Of a DNA stretch of 25,967 nt, positions 4,681 through 18,900 are shown piece by piece; positions within the stretch are counted from its first letter, which is position 1; each line of letters starts with the position of its first letter. The DNA is taken from IMG/VR virus record IMGVR_UViG_3300025132_000255, positions 1-25,967 of that record; one strand, 5' to 3'. The notes below the pieces were generated by a model, which did no database searches, was not told the DNA's origin, and saw nothing but the letters and a program-made list of their open reading frames with translations. The stretch is from a virus. The translations under genes and the position numbers were made by a program.

Positions 4681-4885
4681 CCTTCCTATTAATTTTGCTA
4701 ATGAGAAGTTGCCTCCAGTATCAGAGGAGCTTATCCTGTGGTTGAAAGGGGTGTATCCAGACCGGATGCCTGATGACGAAGAGATGGGGATCATTCGTTA
4801 TAAACAAGGGCAACAGTCTGTTGTAAGAACGCTTACAAGTATATACGAGGAGTTAAGGGATGTGTCTGTCAGCACCAAAACCTAA
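4670..4885 (+). CDS. Small hypothetical protein
   Basis: 71 residues, not recognised by name. It reads LPINFANEKLPPVSEELILWLKGVYPDRMP, then an acidic turn (DDEE), then a helix GIIRYKQGQQSVVRTLTSIYEELRD. A similar layout (helix, 'hPDRxP', then a helix with GQ..VV..L) is common in short phage proteins next to the portal gene. No catalytic motif, signal peptide or TM segment. It overlaps the kinase gene by 11 bases and the next gene by 26. Possibly a head-tail or assembly accessory protein; this rests on position only. Confidence 0.7.
   Translation: MPLDLPINFANEKLPPVSEELILWLKGVYPDRMPDDEEMGIIRYKQGQQSVVRTLTSIYEELRDVSVSTKT
4847..4852 (+). promoter_or_regulatory. Ribosome binding site for the 4860 gene
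   Basis: GAGGAG sits 7 bases before the ATG at 4860, inside the end of the preceding gene. It is among the strongest sites in the window and supports this small gene as real. Confidence 0.6.
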
Positions 4886-5087
4886 AATAGTTAAGGCCCC
4901 CGCGCCTATGCCGCTTCCTCCTGCACCTAACAAGGCAGGGGAATCCACCAAGAAACCACAGTCTATGGTAGGCAAAGGCAAGGACAAGCGGAGGCGAGGA
5001 ACAGCTAGGCAATCCCTAGTAGTACAACAGGATTCAAGACCCACAGGGGTCAACACCAACAAGGGCGGCGTAGGAGTATACAGCTAA
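4860..5087 (+). CDS. Small Pro/Lys-rich virion protein candidate (T7 gp6.7/gp7.3-like)
   Basis: 75 residues. It begins MCLSAPKPKIVKAPAPMPLPP, close in style to T7 gp6.7 (as I recall it, MCFSPKIKTPK...), a small protein packaged in the virion and ejected into the cell. The C-terminal half (GKGKDKRRRGTARQSL...GGVGVY) resembles the basic, Gly-rich end of T7 gp6.7 and gp7.3, both encoded just before the portal gene, as here. No globular domain is predicted; it looks disordered and basic. It has a strong Shine-Dalgarno, and its TAA overlaps the portal ATG (TAATG). Function as an ejected or head-tail protein is inference from sequence style and position. Confidence 0.7.
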   Translation: MCLSAPKPKIVKAPAPMPLPPAPNKAGESTKKPQSMVGKGKDKRRRGTARQSLVVQQDSRPTGVNTNKGGVGVYS

Positions 5088-6673
5088 TGCACACAGGCTC
5101 CCTTAAAAGCTACTACCAAAGCTGCGAAGCTGACAGGGATTCCTACCTACAAAGGGCTAGGGATGCAGCTAAACTGACGATTCCTTACCTAGTCCCGCCT
5201 GATAGCAACGGGCCAGCCACAGTTTACCCCCAACCGTTCCAATCCATAGGAGCCAGAGGCGTAAACAACCTAGCATCCAAGTTACTGCTGGCTCTTTTAC
5301 CCCCAAATTCTCCATTTTTTAGGCTAATCATAGACAAATACGAGCTTGAGAGTGCCAGCCAAGGTCAGACTGATGCCAATCTTAAAACTGAATTAGAAAA
5401 AGCATTAGCAGAAGTAGAACGAGCAGTACAATCCGAGGTGGAAACCAGTGCTGTTCGTGTCGGAGTCTTTGAAGCCCTCAAACAACTGATTGTCTCAGGA
5501 AATGTACTGTTGTACGTCCCTGACAAAGGAGGCTTACGTGTATTTAACTTGGATCGCTACGTCACTCACCGTGATCCAATGGGCAACGTCCAAGACATCA
5601 TCGTCAAGGAATCCCTCTCCGTGGACACCATCCCTGAATCTGTAAAGGAACAGTTACAGGAGATAGACTTCTCTAGTCCAGCAGCAGGGAACAAGAAGAC
5701 CGTTGATGTCTACACAGGAATTTACCGGCAAGGTAAGAAGTGGGTGGTACGACAGGAGATAGCTGACATAAATATACCTGAGGCAGAGGGGGAGTATCCA
5801 CTGGATAAAAACCCGTGGATACCCCTCAGGTATAGTCGCATAGAGAATGAAGACTACGGAAGGGGCTTCATTGAGGAGTACATGGGAGACCTGCAGTCTT
5901 TGGAAGGACTCACCCAAGCTATCGTCGAAGCCAGTGCTGCTTCTGCAAAAGTTTTATTCTTAGTAAATCCAAATGGAACCACTCGTCCACGTATTTTGGC
6001 TAATAGTCCTAACGGTGCTATTGTGCAGGGGAACTCTCAAGATGTCACGGTCTTGCAGGTGGAGAAATTTGCCGACCTCAGGGTGGCTCAAGAAACTATA
6101 ACCCAAATTAAGGAACGACTTGGGTTTGCCTTCTTGATGAACACAGCCATCCAAAGGCAAGGCGAACGAGTTACGGCTGAAGAGATTCGGTTTATGGCTC
6201 AGGAACTTGAGGATGTGTTAGGGGGTGTCTACTCCATCCTCTCTCAAGAATTCCAGATGCCACTCGTAAATAGGCTGATGGACAGAATGGCCAAGGCGGG
6301 GCGTTTACCTAAGTTACCCAAGAAAATCGTTAAAACAACCATTGTAACAGGGCTTGAGGCATTAGGTAGGGGCCACGACCTTAACAAACTGGACTCTTTT
6401 ATAGCAGGAGCAAGTCAACTACTGGGAGACCAGTTTGCTACCTACGTAAACATGGGGGATTACCTCAAGAGACGGGCCACTTCACTCGGCATTGACGTTG
6501 AAGGTCTCATCCGCTCCGAAGAAGAGATTCAACAAGAGCAGCAGATGGCTCAACAACAACAGATGATGTCACAGATAGCACCTAATGTTGCTAATGCTGC
6601 TGGGAAAATAGCTCAGGACGATCCTGAAAGATTTCAAGAGATGGCTCAAGCAGCCTCTGAACAGATGCAGTAA
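5087..6673 (+). CDS. gp8: Portal / head-tail connector (T7 gp8-like)
   Basis: 528 residues (T7 gp8 is 536). Forms the dodecameric ring at one capsid vertex through which DNA is packaged and ejected, and to which the tail tube binds. Clear T7 gp8 signatures run through the protein: GARGVNNLASKLLLALLPP near residue 50, YMGDLQSLEGLTQAIVEAS, VTVLQVEKFADLRVAQ, ERLGFAFLMNTAIQRQGERV, TAEEIRFMAQELEDVLGGVY, SILSQEFQMPLVNRL, and TGLEALGRGHDLNKLD. The C-terminus is Gln/Ala-rich and probably helical. The start overlaps the preceding stop (TAATG), with GGAG 10 bases upstream. Confidence 0.97.
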   Translation: MHTGSLKSYYQSCEADRDSYLQRARDAAKLTIPYLVPPDSNGPATVYPQPFQSIGARGVNNLASKLLLALLPPNSPFFRLIIDKYELESASQGQTDANLKTELEKALAEVERAVQSEVETSAVRVGVFEALKQLIVSGNVLLYVPDKGGLRVFNLDRYVTHRDPMGNVQDIIVKESLSVDTIPESVKEQLQEIDFSSPAAGNKKTVDVYTGIYRQGKKWVVRQEIADINIPEAEGEYPLDKNPWIPLRYSRIENEDYGRGFIEEYMGDLQSLEGLTQAIVEASAASAKVLFLVNPNGTTRPRILANSPNGAIVQGNSQDVTVLQVEKFADLRVAQETITQIKERLGFAFLMNTAIQRQGERVTAEEIRFMAQELEDVLGGVYSILSQEFQMPLVNRLMDRMAKAGRLPKLPKKIVKTTIVTGLEALGRGHDLNKLDSFIAGASQLLGDQFATYVNMGDYLKRRATSLGIDVEGLIRSEEEIQQEQQMAQQQQMMSQIAPNVANAAGKIAQDDPERFQEMAQAASEQMQ

Positions 6674-6800: not shown

Positions 6801-7528
6801 TGGAAAGAGTAACCATAACCGACCAAGAAACAGGCCCAGATGAACCTCAAGCGAACATTGAGCAACCATCTGAAGCACAAGAGACCGTTCAACAAGAACA
6901 GCAAGAACCGGCAGATCGCCCAGAGTGGCTTCCAGAAAAGTTCGGATCACCTGAAGACCTTGCCAAGGCCTACAGTAGTCTTGAAAAGAAGTTTTCTTCA
7001 AGGCAAGCGGAAGAGAAAGGCCTCGTTACGGATGCTGACTTTGAACAATATGCAAATGAGTATGCTGAAAAAGGCGGCTTGAGTGATGACACCTATAAGG
7101 CACTGTCAGATAAAGGACTTTCAAAGGAAATAGTTGATAACTACATACAAGGACAACAACTCCTACGGTCAGCAGAGGAACAGGAACTCTATGGGATAGC
7201 TGGAGGAGAGGAGCAGTACAAACAGATGGCTGCTTGGATGTCTGAGAACGTAGATCAGAGCGACATAGATGCTTACAACGATGCCATCGGTGGAGACAAG
7301 GGTCTAGCCAAGCTGGCCATCAAGGGCATGTATGCACAGTTTGTGGCTGCAGGAGGAGCTAGTGAGGGTGCGTCACCTAATCTAGTCCAAGGAGGTAAGC
7401 CACAGAATGTAGGGGGATACGGCTCTAACTACGAGATGATGCAGGACATGAAAGACCCAAGGTATAAGGCAGGGGACAAGCAGTTCCACGCAATGGTAGA
7501 GAAACGTTTAGCTAAAACAAATTTATGA
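6800..7528 (+). CDS. gp9: Capsid assembly scaffolding protein (T7 gp9-like)
   Basis: 242 residues. Directs capsid shell assembly and leaves before DNA fills the head. The N-terminal 40 residues are acidic and Gln-rich, followed by the hallmark RPEWLPEKFGSPEDLAKAY and SLEKKF (about 40-65) shared by scaffolds of T7-like phages. The centre is acidic and helical. The C-terminus is basic (MVEKRLAKTNL) and likely contacts the capsid protein. ATG at 6800 overlaps the stop of the 40-aa gene and is preferred to the GTG one codon earlier (6797). Its stop shares ATGA with the next micro-gene. Confidence 0.93.
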   Translation: MERVTITDQETGPDEPQANIEQPSEAQETVQQEQQEPADRPEWLPEKFGSPEDLAKAYSSLEKKFSSRQAEEKGLVTDADFEQYANEYAEKGGLSDDTYKALSDKGLSKEIVDNYIQGQQLLRSAEEQELYGIAGGEEQYKQMAAWMSENVDQSDIDAYNDAIGGDKGLAKLAIKGMYAQFVAAGGASEGASPNLVQGGKPQNVGGYGSNYEMMQDMKDPRYKAGDKQFHAMVEKRLAKTNL

Positions 7529-7581
7529 ACTACACCACTAGAGGGCCTAAAGTAAAACGACCTAAACCAAGACCTAAATGA
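7525..7581 (+). CDS. 18-aa basic, Pro-rich micro-ORF linking scaffold and holin
   Basis: ATG at 7525 lies in ATGA with the scaffold stop, and its TGA (7579-7581) lies in ATGA with the holin start at 7578. The peptide is MNYTTRGPKVKRPKPRPK: eight Lys/Arg and four Pro in 18 residues. It could be a real peptide (for example nucleic-acid or membrane binding). It could instead be a translated spacer that carries ribosomes from scaffold to holin and tunes holin output. The two shared start/stop junctions are seen; expression is inferred. No Shine-Dalgarno is visible. Confidence 0.5.
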   Translation: MNYTTRGPKVKRPKPRPK

Positions 7582-7853
7582 ACACAGTAGAAAAGAAAGC
7601 AGGGTACAAGAGTACAGAGTTCTGGATGAGCATGGCAGCAGTAGCTGTTGGTGCTATCGCCAGTTCAGGCATGGTGGAAGACAACGAGTTTGGGGCCAAA
7701 ATAGTAGGCCTTATAACTGCCACACTGGTAGCCCTAGGCTATACAGGATCACGCCTGACCTTGAAGAAGCAACAGTTAGACGCACAGGTGAAGTTAAATG
7801 CTGGAAATACTGGCAGTGATACTGAAGGAAGTTCTAAGCCTGCTGGTGAATGA
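7578..7853 (+). CDS. Holin candidate, two TM segments
   Basis: 91 residues. A short polar N-terminus (MNTVEKKAGYKSTEFW) leads into TM1 (about 14-33, with AVAVGAIASSGM) and TM2 (about 40-57, KIVGLITATLVALGY), followed by a basic then acidic, Gly/Ser-rich tail. The GYKSTEFW...GY(T/V)xSR layout matches a family of small phage holins. Holins form pores in the inner membrane at a set time and release the endolysin. T7 has its holin (17.5) far downstream, so the position between scaffold and capsid is different here. The start sits in ATGA with the 18-aa ORF. A non-lytic small membrane protein remains possible. Confidence 0.78.
   Translation: MNTVEKKAGYKSTEFWMSMAAVAVGAIASSGMVEDNEFGAKIVGLITATLVALGYTGSRLTLKKQQLDAQVKLNAGNTGSDTEGSSKPAGE
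7786..7790 (+). promoter_or_regulatory. Ribosome binding site for the 57-aa overlapping ORF
   Basis: AGGTG lies 7 bases before the ATG at 7798, inside the holin gene. It is the main independent support for translation of the out-of-frame 57-aa ORF. Confidence 0.45.
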
Positions 7854-7971
7854 AGCTGCTAAACCTGTTACAGCTACGGTTGCTCCCGTTGTGCCTCGCA
7901 AGTTGCGTGACGCTTGGGAGCAGCGGATGCTTGACAGGTTCAAAAAAAGTAGTATTCATTCACCCCAATGA
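7798..7971 (+). CDS. 57-aa out-of-frame ORF overlapping holin and lipoprotein genes
   Basis: Starts inside the holin 3' end and ends inside the lipoprotein gene, using a third reading frame. The N-terminus MLEILAVILKEVLSLLV is hydrophobic/amphipathic. The middle is Pro/Ala/Val-rich (KPVTATVAPVVP), and the end is charged and helical (RKLRDAWEQRMLDRFKKS). The amphipathic-helix, linker, 'RDxxxxRxxxRF' pattern resembles short proteins found beside phage holins. It could be the inner-membrane part of a spanin-like pair with the lipoprotein, or a holin regulator (inference). An AGGTG supports the start. An overlap artefact cannot be excluded without conservation data. Confidence 0.55.
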   Translation: MLEILAVILKEVLSLLVNEAAKPVTATVAPVVPRKLRDAWEQRMLDRFKKSSIHSPQ

Positions 7972-8122
7972 CACACTGGTAAGGATAGGGCCAGATGTGA
8001 AGGGTCACGTATATTATTACAAAGGCCCAAAGGAGGGATGGGAACTCTCCGCAAATAAAGTTCAGTTGCCAGAAGGCTGGTTAGCTGGGCCTATGAATTT
8101 GCCCGAAGGGGAAGCCGAATAG
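7850..8122 (+). CDS. Small lipoprotein in the lysis cassette (outer-spanin candidate)
   Basis: 90 residues. The N-terminus is a lipoprotein signal: MKLLNLLQLR, a hydrophobic stretch LLPLC, and a perfect lipobox LASC (Cys19). A second Cys (SSGC, C27) is a poorer lipobox. The mature part (KKVVFIHPNDTLVRIGP...VYYYKGPKEGWELSANKVQLPEGW) is beta-rich and like small lipoproteins that follow holins in other phages ('VRI..V...YYK.. GW......LPEGW'). It would be lipidated and exported, so it may act as an outer-membrane lysis (spanin) factor, though it lacks the coiled coil of classic spanins. ATG is in ATGA with the holin stop and lacks its own good Shine-Dalgarno. Confidence 0.72.
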   Translation: MKLLNLLQLRLLPLCLASCVTLGSSGCLTGSKKVVFIHPNDTLVRIGPDVKGHVYYYKGPKEGWELSANKVQLPEGWLAGPMNLPEGEAE

Positions 8123-8126
8123 CCGG

Positions 8127-8147
8127 TTACGACCGACAACTTGGAGG
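8127..8147 (+). promoter_or_regulatory. Candidate phage RNA polymerase promoter before the capsid gene
   Basis: TTACGACCGACAACTTGGAG resembles the T7 promoter TAATACGACTCACTATAGGG. With its TACGAC aligned to T7 -14 to -9, 13 of the 20 positions from -14 to +6 agree by hand count, including -11 to -9, -6, -5 and GGAG at the start region. Transcription would begin near G8143. It sits where T7 has phi10. I found no convincing second copy, so the consensus cannot be tested within this window. Confidence 0.4.
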
Positions 8148-8215
8148 CAATCCAATAGGGATTGTTAGTTAGTAGACTGCAGTGAGTGCTGTGGTCATTA
8201 GTTGTTTAGTAACAA
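8148..8215 (+). promoter_or_regulatory. Structured 5' leader of capsid mRNA: three hairpins
   Basis: Three potential stem-loops follow one another. The first is 8148-8164 (CAATCC / GGATTG, 5-base loop). The second is 8175-8196 (8 pairs including two G-T, 6-base loop). The third is 8202-8215 (TTGTT / AACAA, 4-base loop). The capsid Shine-Dalgarno AAAGG (8225-8229) is left free just beyond. T7 gene 10 mRNA also starts with a stem-loop that stabilises it, so a similar job is likely but not shown. The whole non-coding interval is 8123-8236. Confidence 0.5.
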
Positions 8216-8236
8216 AGTAAAAAGAAAGGCTATATT

Positions 8237-9469
8237 ATGGCATATATTAATAACCTCTTTGGTGGTCACGCTACCAACGATGGAGTAAAGGGTCGTATTG
8301 GTTCCAACAACCATGCAAGCGACTCAACAGGTCTCTTCCTAAAGAAATTTGCGGGAGAGGTAATGACGGTGTTCGATGAAAAGAACATAATGAAACCGTT
8401 ACATACCATTCGTACTATCTCGAAAGGTAAATCGGCACAGTTCCCTGTAATCGGAACTGCAGGAGCAGGCTACTACACGCCCGGTACGGACATCTTAGGT
8501 GTCGATACTACAGGTGCAGGAGCTAACGGTGGTCTCAATCTGATGAAGCAGACCGAAGTACTCATCCACATTGACAAGATGTTGATGGCTAACACCTTCA
8601 TTTCGTCTATTGATGAACTGGTGAGTCACTTCGATGTTCGCGCCCCTTATACACACCAACTTGGCGAAGCCTTGGCAACTCAGTTTGACAAGAACGTCCT
8701 CAAGGTGGCTATTAAAACAGGAGCAAAGAACAACGCTTCTGACACAGAAACTGCTGGTGTAAACAACGCTGATAAGAAGTGTCTGCTTCCGTCTGACGCT
8801 TGGATCAGTGGACAAACTAAACGTGGCTCAGTTGTTTATTCTAAACACGTAGTAGGTGCTGTTGATGATGCTGAAATTACGGCAAACACAGCGTCTGCTC
8901 ACACAGCAACAAACTCCTTGAGACATACTCCTGATGCTACAGCAATCCGCAATGCTCTCTTTGAGTCTGCACGATTGTTGGACGAGAAGGATGTTCCTTC
9001 AAGTGATCGGTACGCCATCATCACTCCTGCGATGTACTATGAGTTGATCAACAGTAACGATATTGTCACTGGTTCGGTCATCAACAAGGACATTGGAGGT
9101 TCTGGTTCTATTGCCTCTGGTACTGTTACTCAGTTGGCAGGAATCAACATTCTGGTAAGCAACCATCTTCCTACTGAAGACGAAACTGCTGGAACCCATG
9201 CAAACCGTTGGGAAGGTCAAACAGGTAATAACTACGACCTAGACTACACCCACTGTGCTGGCATCGTGTTCCAGAAGGGTGGATTCGGTACGCTGAAGTT
9301 GCAGGACTTGACGATGGAATCAGAATACATGATTTCCCGTCAAGGTAACCTGTTCGTTGCCAAATACAGCATGGGTCATGGGCCACTTCGCCCTGAGTCT
9401 GTTGTTGTTTGGTCTGACGGTACTCGTCCAGAACGGGAAACTGATTCTGACGTAACCGCAAATAACTAA
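8237..9469 (+). CDS. gp10: Major capsid protein (T7 gp10-like)
   Basis: 410 residues (T7 gp10A is 345), HK97-fold shell subunit. T7 gp10 landmarks are present: FLKKFAGEVMTVF (about residue 33), TIRTISKGKSAQFPVIGTAGAGYYTPG, VRAPYTHQLGEALATQFD, a central SSDRYAIITPAMYYEL strand-helix segment, AGINILVSNHLP, and the C-terminal KYSMGHGPLRPESVVVW. The extra length lies mainly in a Thr/Ala/Asn-rich stretch around residues 160-235 and another near 305-335, perhaps surface loops. A candidate promoter and leader precede the gene and a strong terminator follows it, as expected for the most expressed late gene. No frameshift site giving a 10B-type extension was seen. Confidence 0.96.
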   Translation: MAYINNLFGGHATNDGVKGRIGSNNHASDSTGLFLKKFAGEVMTVFDEKNIMKPLHTIRTISKGKSAQFPVIGTAGAGYYTPGTDILGVDTTGAGANGGLNLMKQTEVLIHIDKMLMANTFISSIDELVSHFDVRAPYTHQLGEALATQFDKNVLKVAIKTGAKNNASDTETAGVNNADKKCLLPSDAWISGQTKRGSVVYSKHVVGAVDDAEITANTASAHTATNSLRHTPDATAIRNALFESARLLDEKDVPSSDRYAIITPAMYYELINSNDIVTGSVINKDIGGSGSIASGTVTQLAGINILVSNHLPTEDETAGTHANRWEGQTGNNYDLDYTHCAGIVFQKGGFGTLKLQDLTMESEYMISRQGNLFVAKYSMGHGPLRPESVVVWSDGTRPERETDSDVTANN

Positions 9470-15917: not shown

Positions 15918-18900
15918 TGGCAGCAAAACGAAGAGTTACCCCATCCGTAGAATCTTTAGGGACACCCCAAACCGCCCCTGCTGTAGGATCGCCCAATTAT
16001 AACGTAATAGGAGCAGCAGGGCCTCCTATCGGGCCTAACCCGTTAGCACAACTCTCACAGTCTTTGCGTAGGTTTAATCCTGTGCTTGGTCAGTATGCTG
16101 CAGCTAAACAACAGATGTCAGCAGAAGATGCCAAGAAATGGTTTGATGAAATGGAGCAAGGCGTCAGCGATAACGCTATCTTCATTAAAAGAAAACTAAA
16201 GGAACTTGGCTATGACGATCACGCTAACCCTGAAATATACAAGCAGGAGATAATCAACACTGCTCAGAACTTTGCTGTTAGGGATGCCACAGCTATTGCT
16301 ACTAACCCAGAGTTCCTGACAGCTATGCAGGAGTTATCAAAGACCAGTGATGATTTCGCTAATGATGCTGTAGCTTTGATTAACGAAAAGTTTCCCCATC
16401 CTGAACGGGAAGCCGAAGATAAAAAAGTAGGACACTATTGGGAAGTGGGCTACGGCAAAGGATGGATTACAGCAAGAGATCATATCCTGTCTCCGTTTGT
16501 AGAGGCACACGAAAAAGCAAGGCCCGTTCAGATAAAACAGGCTTTCTTTGAAAACGGAAGAAACCAATTGGCAAGTGCGCTCTCTTCAAGTTCTAAAGAT
16601 TGGGAACCTAAATTTTTAGGCCTAAGAAAATTCCTCAACACAAGCTATGGGGGATACGCAGGACAAGGAGCAGCTTACTCGCAGGCCGTCATGGATAACA
16701 TAATTAAGCCTGTGTTTATGGATTTAGCCAGAGACCCAAATAATGACATTAACTTAGCAGCCGCATGGAATAGGGTCACAAAGCTAACAAGGGATAATCC
16801 TAACGGAGGCAGAACCCAACTGTTTAAAAAACACAGTGACATCAGCATGGCTGCAGGGGTGAACACTGCGACAGATGTTTGGGCTGAGATAGCGCAGGCA
16901 GAAGAACAAGCCTATTACAAGCAGAGCAAAAAGCAAAACACCCTGCAGACTGATTTAAATAACAAAGTACAACAGACGTTAGGTAACTGGGAAACTTTTT
17001 CGCAAACGCCTGAAAACATAGAATGGGCCAAAGGAGAAAACATTTTCGGGCTTGATCCTTTTGATCGCCTAAATCACAGCCGCATAGCAGACGCACTTTC
17101 AAGACACCCTGATTTAAGACTGCCGCCTACGGTAGCTAACGATCAGGTAATGTATATGTTCAGTGATGCTGTCAGGGATGGAAGAACCGCAGTACTCAAA
17201 ATTGATACAGAAGGCATTGGCGCAGAAAAAGATTACAGAGACGCCCTCATGAATAGCCTTTCTGTGGTCGCTCAAGAATCAGGAGTACCCATACTGCAGT
17301 CCATGATTCCCAAAATTGAAAAAGCCATAGGCAATCCTTCTTTAAGCATACCGGATATACGAAAGGAAGCCCTTGCGTTTCTCAACACAGATGAGTTCAA
17401 GATGGCGTTCTTCACGGATAATCCTAACATTGATCCTGAGACTCTTCCTTGGAAAGCTGCCATTACACAGGCCTTCGATAAGATGTCAGAAGGAACTGCC
17501 ATTTCTACAGGACGGGATTACCTGCATCTAGCTAACGCATTACTTGATAATCCCAATACAGCCACAAAAGATTTAAACGAAATCCATGAGGACTTGAGGG
17601 ACATTTTGAATGAGGTTGATGATACTGATTTAGAATCTGACATCAAAGGAGTCATGGATACAATAAAACAGAGAAATGACCTTAAGCCTTACTACACAAT
17701 CACTGACAAATATTTAAATGACATTGTTAACGAAGCAATAACCGATACCGTTAACGAAGAACTGGCAAACGTCTACGCACTGGCCAACCAAAGGCTACCA
17801 ACTGGAGAGGGTGCGGGAGATATAAACGTGGCTGATCCTGTCAAGATAATGGCGGCTGATGGTGCGCTGGCGAAAGCTGTTACTGTTGCAAGAAATGAAT
17901 GGAACGAACAAGTCTCTGCAGGCCTAGCTGGAATTGATCCTGTGGAAAGGGACGCTGCGTGGTCTGCGAAGGGACTAAAAGATACTGTAAGAGAACGAAC
18001 AGTTAATTCTCTAAAACGTACCTTTAAACACAGCGTCTTGAACGATTACAACGAGCGTTTAAGAAGAGACCCTAAAGCTGCTATAAAACAGGAAGAACAA
18101 GAGCAGGGGATATTCACAGATGACATTAAGGAACTTATAAGGAATAAGGATGGCGTAGAAAAACAATTCCATACGGACAAAATATATGGAGGGTCAGCAA
18201 CAGAAGGTAAAGAAACAGAAGTAAAACCTAATTTATCCCTGCAGTTTATGGCGGGGCCAAAAGGACAACAGCGGTACAACAACCTTAAGGAAAACAAACG
18301 TAAGATTGTTAAAGCACGAAAAGAACTTATTGGGAACATTTACAACAAAACAGAAGAACTGAAAAAACTTGAGGAAACTGGAAGCCAATCCGCACAGCGT
18401 TCCAAAGCGGCTGAACGTGACAACGAGGTACTGACTTTCAAGGCCTTTGAGAAAGAGTTTGGAATTTTGCCTTGGGAAAAACTCAATTCCCCTGAAGGCT
18501 TAACACTTGAGCTACCTACGGCAGGCGCACCTATACAGGTCAAGTTCGACCTAGATGAGGACAGGATAAACCTGAACAACACCCTCGTATTTGAGTCTCT
18601 TCCAAAAATCTCTGAAAAGATAGAGTCACTAAACACATGGGAAGAGGAGCAGGGAGGGGAGGCTGCAGAGACTAATCGTGAGTCTGCACCTGAAGACCTT
18701 AAGGAACACGCTAATTTTATTAAGAGAGCGCATGGGATAGATATACTAGCGCGTGACCCTTCGGTTAGAAAGTCAGCCCTTGAGGACTACACTCAGCTAC
18801 TCCAATCCCAAGCAGGCATGATTCACTCAAGCCATCCTGAGCAACTCCCCGTAGGAGTCAGGAAAGACCTAGAAGATCAGGCATTAAAACAGTTTTACAC

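Follow-up and report, generated by a model that had tools for sequence, protein, structure and literature searches.

The lipoprotein of the lambda, T7 and P2 spanins is encoded downstream in the +1 frame (Kongari et al. PMC6139136). This register is not obligatory, and no coiled coil is predicted for more than 120 i-spanins (Kongari et al. PMC6139136), so the spanin class is wider than these pairs, yet a transmembrane domain (TMD) is still required. The combined periplasmic length of known spanins ranges from 62 to 300 residues (PMC6139136). Disruptins, in turn, are short amphipathic peptides that were described for phages without spanins (PMC12819732). Here, we analyze two overlapping genes, referred to as o57 and lip, on a 25,967-nucleotide stretch of the IMG/VR virus record IMGVR_UViG_3300025132_000255 (this whole stretch is called the window below). 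The o57/lip pair is a real functional unit that is undescribed in the libraries searched.

Gene content and layout of the cassette

According to Pfam and PHROGs, the window derives from a T7-like phage with a DNA polymerase A, a Gp8-like portal, a T7 capsid-assembly scaffold, and a Gp10A-like capsid protein. Its closest matches in phage collections were members of the Autographiviridae, such as uncultured phage MedDCM-OCT-S45-C18 and roseophages. The scaffold gene ends at position 7528 and the capsid gene starts at 8237, with four small open reading frames (ORFs) in between (Table 1). A preceding sequence-only reading had described these ORFs as a compact lysis cassette in three reading frames. 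All four were found at the positions and in the frames claimed, and the overlaps of 56 bases between holin and o57 (7798-7853) and of 122 bases between o57 and lip (7850-7971) proved exact. Every base of o57 is thus shared with either the holin gene or the lip gene. ATGA stop/start overlaps join the scaffold gene to the 18-aa ORF, the 18-aa ORF to the holin gene, and the holin gene to lip. The AGGTG motif ascribed to o57 is present upstream of it in the window (as AGGTGA) but is not kept at this place in the relatives.

Table 1 Positions of the cassette features in the window and of a further overlapping gene pair in a relative.
Feature	Position	Strand	Remark
18-aa micropeptide ORF, cationic, proline-rich, MNYTTRGPKVKRPKPRPK	7525..7581	+	optional part of cassette
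Two-TM holin candidate, 91 aa, KKxGYKSTEFW...GYTGSRLTLKK type	7578..7853	+	
o57, 57-aa protein	7798..7971	+	without private DNA
lip, 90-aa predicted outer-membrane lipoprotein	7850..8122	+	+1 frame relative to o57
Cys27 codon of lip (GSSGC), likely lipidated	7928..7930	+	invariant in 54 sequences
Cys19 codon of lip (LASC), lipobox of the sequence-only reading	7904..7906	+	not conserved: LASY in L029, no Cys in L052/L053
Terminase-proximal pair	L110:18402-18680 and 18598-18825 (G001 37402-37825)		

The 18-aa ORF occurs with near-identical residues in loci L002, L008, L009, and L010 and in no other relative examined; its six differences between the window and L008 are all synonymous. In relatives lacking it, the holin start directly overlaps the scaffold end or follows it. 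One subclade encodes an additional protein of 103-111 aa between scaffold and holin, with a Sec-type signal peptide (ETFGASLKPxPxxTLFGQ...) and no Pfam match (L025:4370-4687, L034:2637-2972, L044:4397-4711, L050:747-1061, and others).

The holin candidate of the window is hydrophobic over residues ~15-33 and ~42-60, which fits a small two-TM protein in a lysis context, and is 60-81% identical in close relatives. It had no match in Pfam or PHROGs, the best hit being the PHROG 297 holin with an E-value of 0.065. In one clade of distant relatives, the syntenic place directly upstream of o57/lip is taken by the Pam3 gp28 family (Phage_holin_10, PF23987; E = 1.7e-15, confirmed in genomes G003-G005), whereas the holin candidate of the window belongs to a different sequence family that Pfam does not list. 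Of 52 loci among the matches listed, 49 have a small TM ORF immediately before the pair. These ORFs belong to at least three unrelated types, including the KxGYKSTEF type of the window and Pam3 gp28 (PF23987). The holin context of the cassette is hence conserved, as the description of a lysis cassette implied. L179 and L182 have lip proteins with 65% identity but holins without any similarity; the pair thus persists when holins are exchanged.

Evidence for an endolysin was confined to a few genomes. A lysozyme-like ORF of 219-228 aa occupies the gap between the capsid and tail tubular protein A genes in only three relatives (L008:6843-7502, L029:6622-7302, and L015), with below-cut-off E-values of 0.0006-0.0012 to PF00959 in the two that were scanned. 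Neither the window nor the other relatives have a gene in this gap. A search of 14 genomes with five Pfam endolysin families yielded only a sub-threshold lysozyme in G007 and a doubtful partial GH108 domain within a 1478-aa frame in G002. In the relatives G003 and G004, which carry the Pam3-type holin, GP88 (PF17338) adjoins a DUF932 protein (L115:8632-10425, L114:752-2387).

Purifying selection on both nested frames

An open frame in the position of o57 proves little by itself because such a frame often survives synonymous recoding of the neighboring genes: the probability was 0.13 for the window and ~0.25 on average for the relatives (range 0.13-0.4). However, o57 is a real gene. Close relatives have an unbroken o57 frame at the corresponding position, with 69-77% identity, and identities across 20 relatives from the clade of the window are 51-77%. 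None of the intact loci listed has a broken o57 frame next to intact neighbors, a pattern that the sequence-only reading had named as evidence against the gene.

That reading had also proposed a codon-position analysis, and in the o57/lip overlap this analysis revealed constraint on the o57 frame. In 24 sequences, differences at lip codon positions 1, 2, and 3 amounted to 0.12, 0.29, and 0.24 inside the o57 overlap and to 0.17, 0.13, and 0.41 outside of it. The most variable site of the overlap is lip position 2, which is the third (wobble) position of o57; therefore, o57 is more constrained there than lip. Ratios of nonsynonymous to synonymous changes (N/S) relative to neutral expectation, obtained by a single pairwise method from non-independent pairs, were 0.33 for o57 where it overlaps lip and 0.27 where it overlaps the holin gene, compared to 0.72 for lip within the o57 overlap and 2.38 for the control frame. 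Purifying selection thus acts on both frames, strongly on o57 and more weakly on lip in the overlap, which shows that the strongest constraint in an overlap can fall on a gene without private DNA.

RNA structure was rejected as the cause of o57 conservation, with covariation in just one of 20 base pairs. The cassette RNA (window positions 7490-8240) folds more stably than 20 shuffled versions (z = −4.27), and a hairpin within the o57/lip overlap displayed no convincing covariation.

Features of the o57 and lip proteins

The AlphaFold2 model of o57 (pLDDT 77.5) predicts an amphipathic helix (residues 2-20), a proline-containing linker, and a cationic helix (residues 34-51). The protein contains two near-invariant prolines and a conserved segment, P-x-x-(L/V/Y)-(R/H)-x-x-W, and has a net charge of +3 in the window. 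Family members comprise 49-75 aa, with a hydrophobic moment (muH) of 0.35-0.62 for the N-terminal helix and net charges mostly from +3 to +9 (0 in L080 and L082). As a TM segment, this helix scores poorly in the window, with a maximal KD value of 1.55, K10 and E11 in mid-helix, and an approximate dG of +2.1 on a home-made simplified insertion score that is not a TM predictor. On the same score, most of the window clade ranges from +2 to +5 (exception: L052, −0.6), and the clade with Pam3-type holins is borderline at +0.3 to +0.6. As the sequence-only reading had remarked, the coiled coil usual for spanins is missing from o57, and there is no second cysteine for a disulfide. The o57 model had no match in BFVD.

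The lip protein consists of a signal peptide, the invariant Cys27, a linker, and a small C-terminal beta domain (GxVYYxxGxxWELSxNxVxLPEGWxxGP) with modeled strands at residues 50-57 and 64-73 (AlphaFold2; pLDDT 85-93 over residues 41-80). The sequence-only reading had placed the lipobox at LASC. A lipobox cysteine is indeed kept in every relative, and a lipoprotein lacking it, which would have contradicted that reading, was not seen; the cysteine that is kept, however, is Cys27 and not Cys19 of LASC. Cys27 follows a hydrophobic stretch and is invariant in all aligned lip sequences, whereas Cys19 is lost in L029 (LASY), in L052/L053 (LLVLG/LLLLG), and in most of the distant clade. Cys27 is therefore probably the lipidation site. 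This choice rests on conservation: the lipobox at Cys27 is canonical in relatives (LTGC/ISGC) and weaker in the window (SSGC), where LASC looks better. The residue at position +2 of a lipoprotein, Asp versus others, decides its membrane according to the Lol sorting rule. Since the +2 residue after Cys27 is Leu and not Asp, lip is expected to be sorted to the outer membrane. No match was obtained for lip among PDB folds, and a WW-like fold for its VYY..W hairpin was rejected because the similarity to PRP40 was not significant (E = 1.8-2.9). BFVD contains the lip relatives A0A516LV47 (40% identity, E = 4.7e-6) and, more weakly, A0A6J7WFE6, neither of which is functionally named.

Distribution of the pair in uncultured phages

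Alignment-guided scans of IMG/VR retrieved 72 and then 166 lip loci, with the best 80 of the 166 being taken. Removal of identical lip C-termini left 59 loci among the matches listed, two of which end at a contig end. All 57 distinct uncut loci among these matches contain an ORF in the o57 frame, in the same register and overlapping the lip start. The o57 profile, which was built with 19 of the sequences concerned, matched 52 of the phylogenetically related loci listed at E ≤ 0.01. The two genes thus form an inseparable pair.

Contigs with the pair are T7-like, T4-like, and siphovirus-like. Genes for gp32 and a DnaB-type helicase adjoin it in L082, and a probable tape measure gene lies downstream in L186, so the pair is not restricted to T7-like phages. 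Lip was also detected on four contigs of metagenome-assembled genomes (titled Planctomycetota, Kuenenia, Neomarinimicrobiota, and "uncultured bacterium"), and the nested o57 partner is present in all three of these that are uncut at the lip gene. No recognizable copy was found among 50,697 phage records queried with five lip variants, o57, and three holins, and neither protein had a match in Pfam or PHROGs. Cultured pelagiphages and roseophages have other small ORFs, and no such pair, between the scaffold and capsid genes.

Four relatives (G001, G002, G007, and G009) contain another overlapping pair immediately before the terminase gene, a region that the window does not reach. It encodes a lipoprotein of 75 aa and a TM protein of 92 aa whose tail is charged and probably forms a coiled coil (E = 0.094 to the Rz-like spanin PHROG 739). 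Judged by these sequence features, this pair appears nearer to Rz/Rz1 than o57/lip and is a candidate canonical spanin. A lipoprotein scan of G003 and G004, two other near-complete genomes, found one further small lipoprotein in each, without an overlapping TM partner, and no second overlapping pair of this type; its fixed lipobox pattern failed to detect even lip in the window and in G004, so the scan is non-exhaustive. In one clade, o57/lip may be redundant with a canonical spanin, and in another it may be the only system; alternatively, its role may be a different one.

Proposed function and alternatives

With a probability of roughly 0.48, o57 and lip would form a two-component module that disrupts the outer membrane in the manner of overlapped spanins. 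The pair is placed in lysis because holin, o57, and lip follow each other in a fixed order in unrelated phages, because the two genes overlap in a +1 architecture, and because some relatives have the lysozyme-like ORF after the capsid gene; the outer membrane is the presumed target because a lipoprotein is combined with a small, membrane-active partner. By analogy, the two-TM holin would open the inner membrane, and the peptidoglycan would then be cut by an endolysin, which was not found in the window. The N-terminal amphipathic helix may hold o57 at or in the inner membrane, and the lipid at Cys27 may anchor lip in the inner leaflet of the outer membrane. Joining of the conserved P-x-x-(L/V/Y)-(R/H)-x-x-W segment of o57 to the beta domain of lip would finally destroy the outer membrane. 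A two-component envelope-disruption module, as suggested by the sequence-only reading, remains the best reading of the pair, as an inferred rather than demonstrated function with regard to localization, o57-lip contact, and membrane disruption alike.

The main rival, albeit an unlikely one, is a disruptin-like action of o57. Here, a cytoplasmic, cationic, and amphipathic o57 would leave through the holin lesion and permeabilize the outer membrane like phiKT gp28, with lip docking or sensitizing. The small size of the family, its amphipathic N-terminal helix, mostly positive charge, and lack of a clear TM segment, and the adjoining holin gene are consistent with this scenario, and so would be the two separated helices of the o57 model. 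However, o57 lacks similarity to phiKT gp28, and two members (L080 and L082) have no net charge. Moreover, the phiKT annotation shows no nested lipoprotein, whereas lip accompanies o57 in every intact locus listed.

Even less probable is a role in lysis timing, the holin regulator also considered in the sequence-only reading, with o57 as a cytoplasmic antiholin-like protein and lip as a periplasmic or outer-membrane sensor. The pair adjoins and overlaps the holin gene, but its retention alongside unrelated holins is at odds with a specific holin contact and makes this function less likely; a periplasmic antiholin feature was not found either. Some phage lipoproteins block receptors and thereby cause superinfection exclusion. 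Protection of the envelope by lip in this way, with o57 as an accessory, would be conceivable where phage genomes have another spanin. This is very unlikely given that the pair is located among late head genes behind the holin gene, that the holin-o57-lip order is fixed in unrelated phages, and that the beta domain of lip is conserved and not diversified. Finally, the notion that o57 is a chance open frame inside two genuine genes, to which its lack of private DNA and the survival of the frame in recoded sequences (0.13-0.4 per sequence) might point, is ruled out by the codon-position variability with its maximum at the o57 wobble site, the intact frame in all intact loci listed, and the N/S ratios of 0.27-0.33.

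Comparison with known lysis systems

Like overlapped spanins such as P2 LysB/LysC and those of phiKMV, and like the embedded T7 18.5/18.7, the o57/lip pair is nested, with a +1 lipoprotein gene that starts inside the partner gene. Small products and a lysis context are shared as well, and so is the location of the tolerant signal peptide of the lipoprotein in the part that overlaps the partner. The predicted N-terminal SPII signal of lip agrees with an o-spanin, and linkage of the two genes, overlapped and in +1 register, was found in all intact loci listed. Approximately 37 residues after the o57 helix (if periplasmic) and 63 after Cys27 add up to a combined length of ~100 residues, which lies within the spanin range. 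In contrast to i-spanins, o57 of the window has no convincing N-terminal TMD of type II topology, no coiled coil, and only those ~37 residues beyond its helix, and lip differs by its conserved beta domain. No similarity to known spanin families was detected in Pfam and PHROGs or by hhalign to T7 18.5/18.7. We thus propose that the pair works like a spanin and do not class it as one, because o57 lacks a good TM anchor and four relatives possess the second, more Rz/Rz1-like pair.

With phiKT gp28, which is a cationic protein of ~56 aa from a T7-like phage, o57 shares the short length, the positive charge (except for the two members mentioned above), the amphipathic helix, and the adjoining holin gene. 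It differs from gp28 in sequence, in its lower net charge, and in being tied to a nested lipoprotein. Ayaqvirus S45C18 (AP013544.1, L023) also has a holin-sized TM ORF in the scaffold-capsid interval followed by a nested gene pair, which consists of a 104-aa protein with an N-terminal amphipathic helix (4824-5138) and an unannotated nested +1 lipoprotein (4885-5106). This pair has no detectable homology to o57/lip beyond the signal peptide.

The conserved, holin-linked o57/lip pair is a concrete candidate for the breach of the outer membrane by such marine phages. An LPEGWxxGP lipoprotein nested in the +1 frame of a small amphipathic ORF provides a search signature for the annotation of uncultured phages. 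It is a tentative and still doubtful thought that the non-TM cationic amphipathic protein, together with the beta-domain lipoprotein that is encoded +1 to it, might represent a third outer-membrane disruption machine that stands between spanins and disruptins, common among uncultured phages with several morphotypes and not seen in collections of cultured phages.
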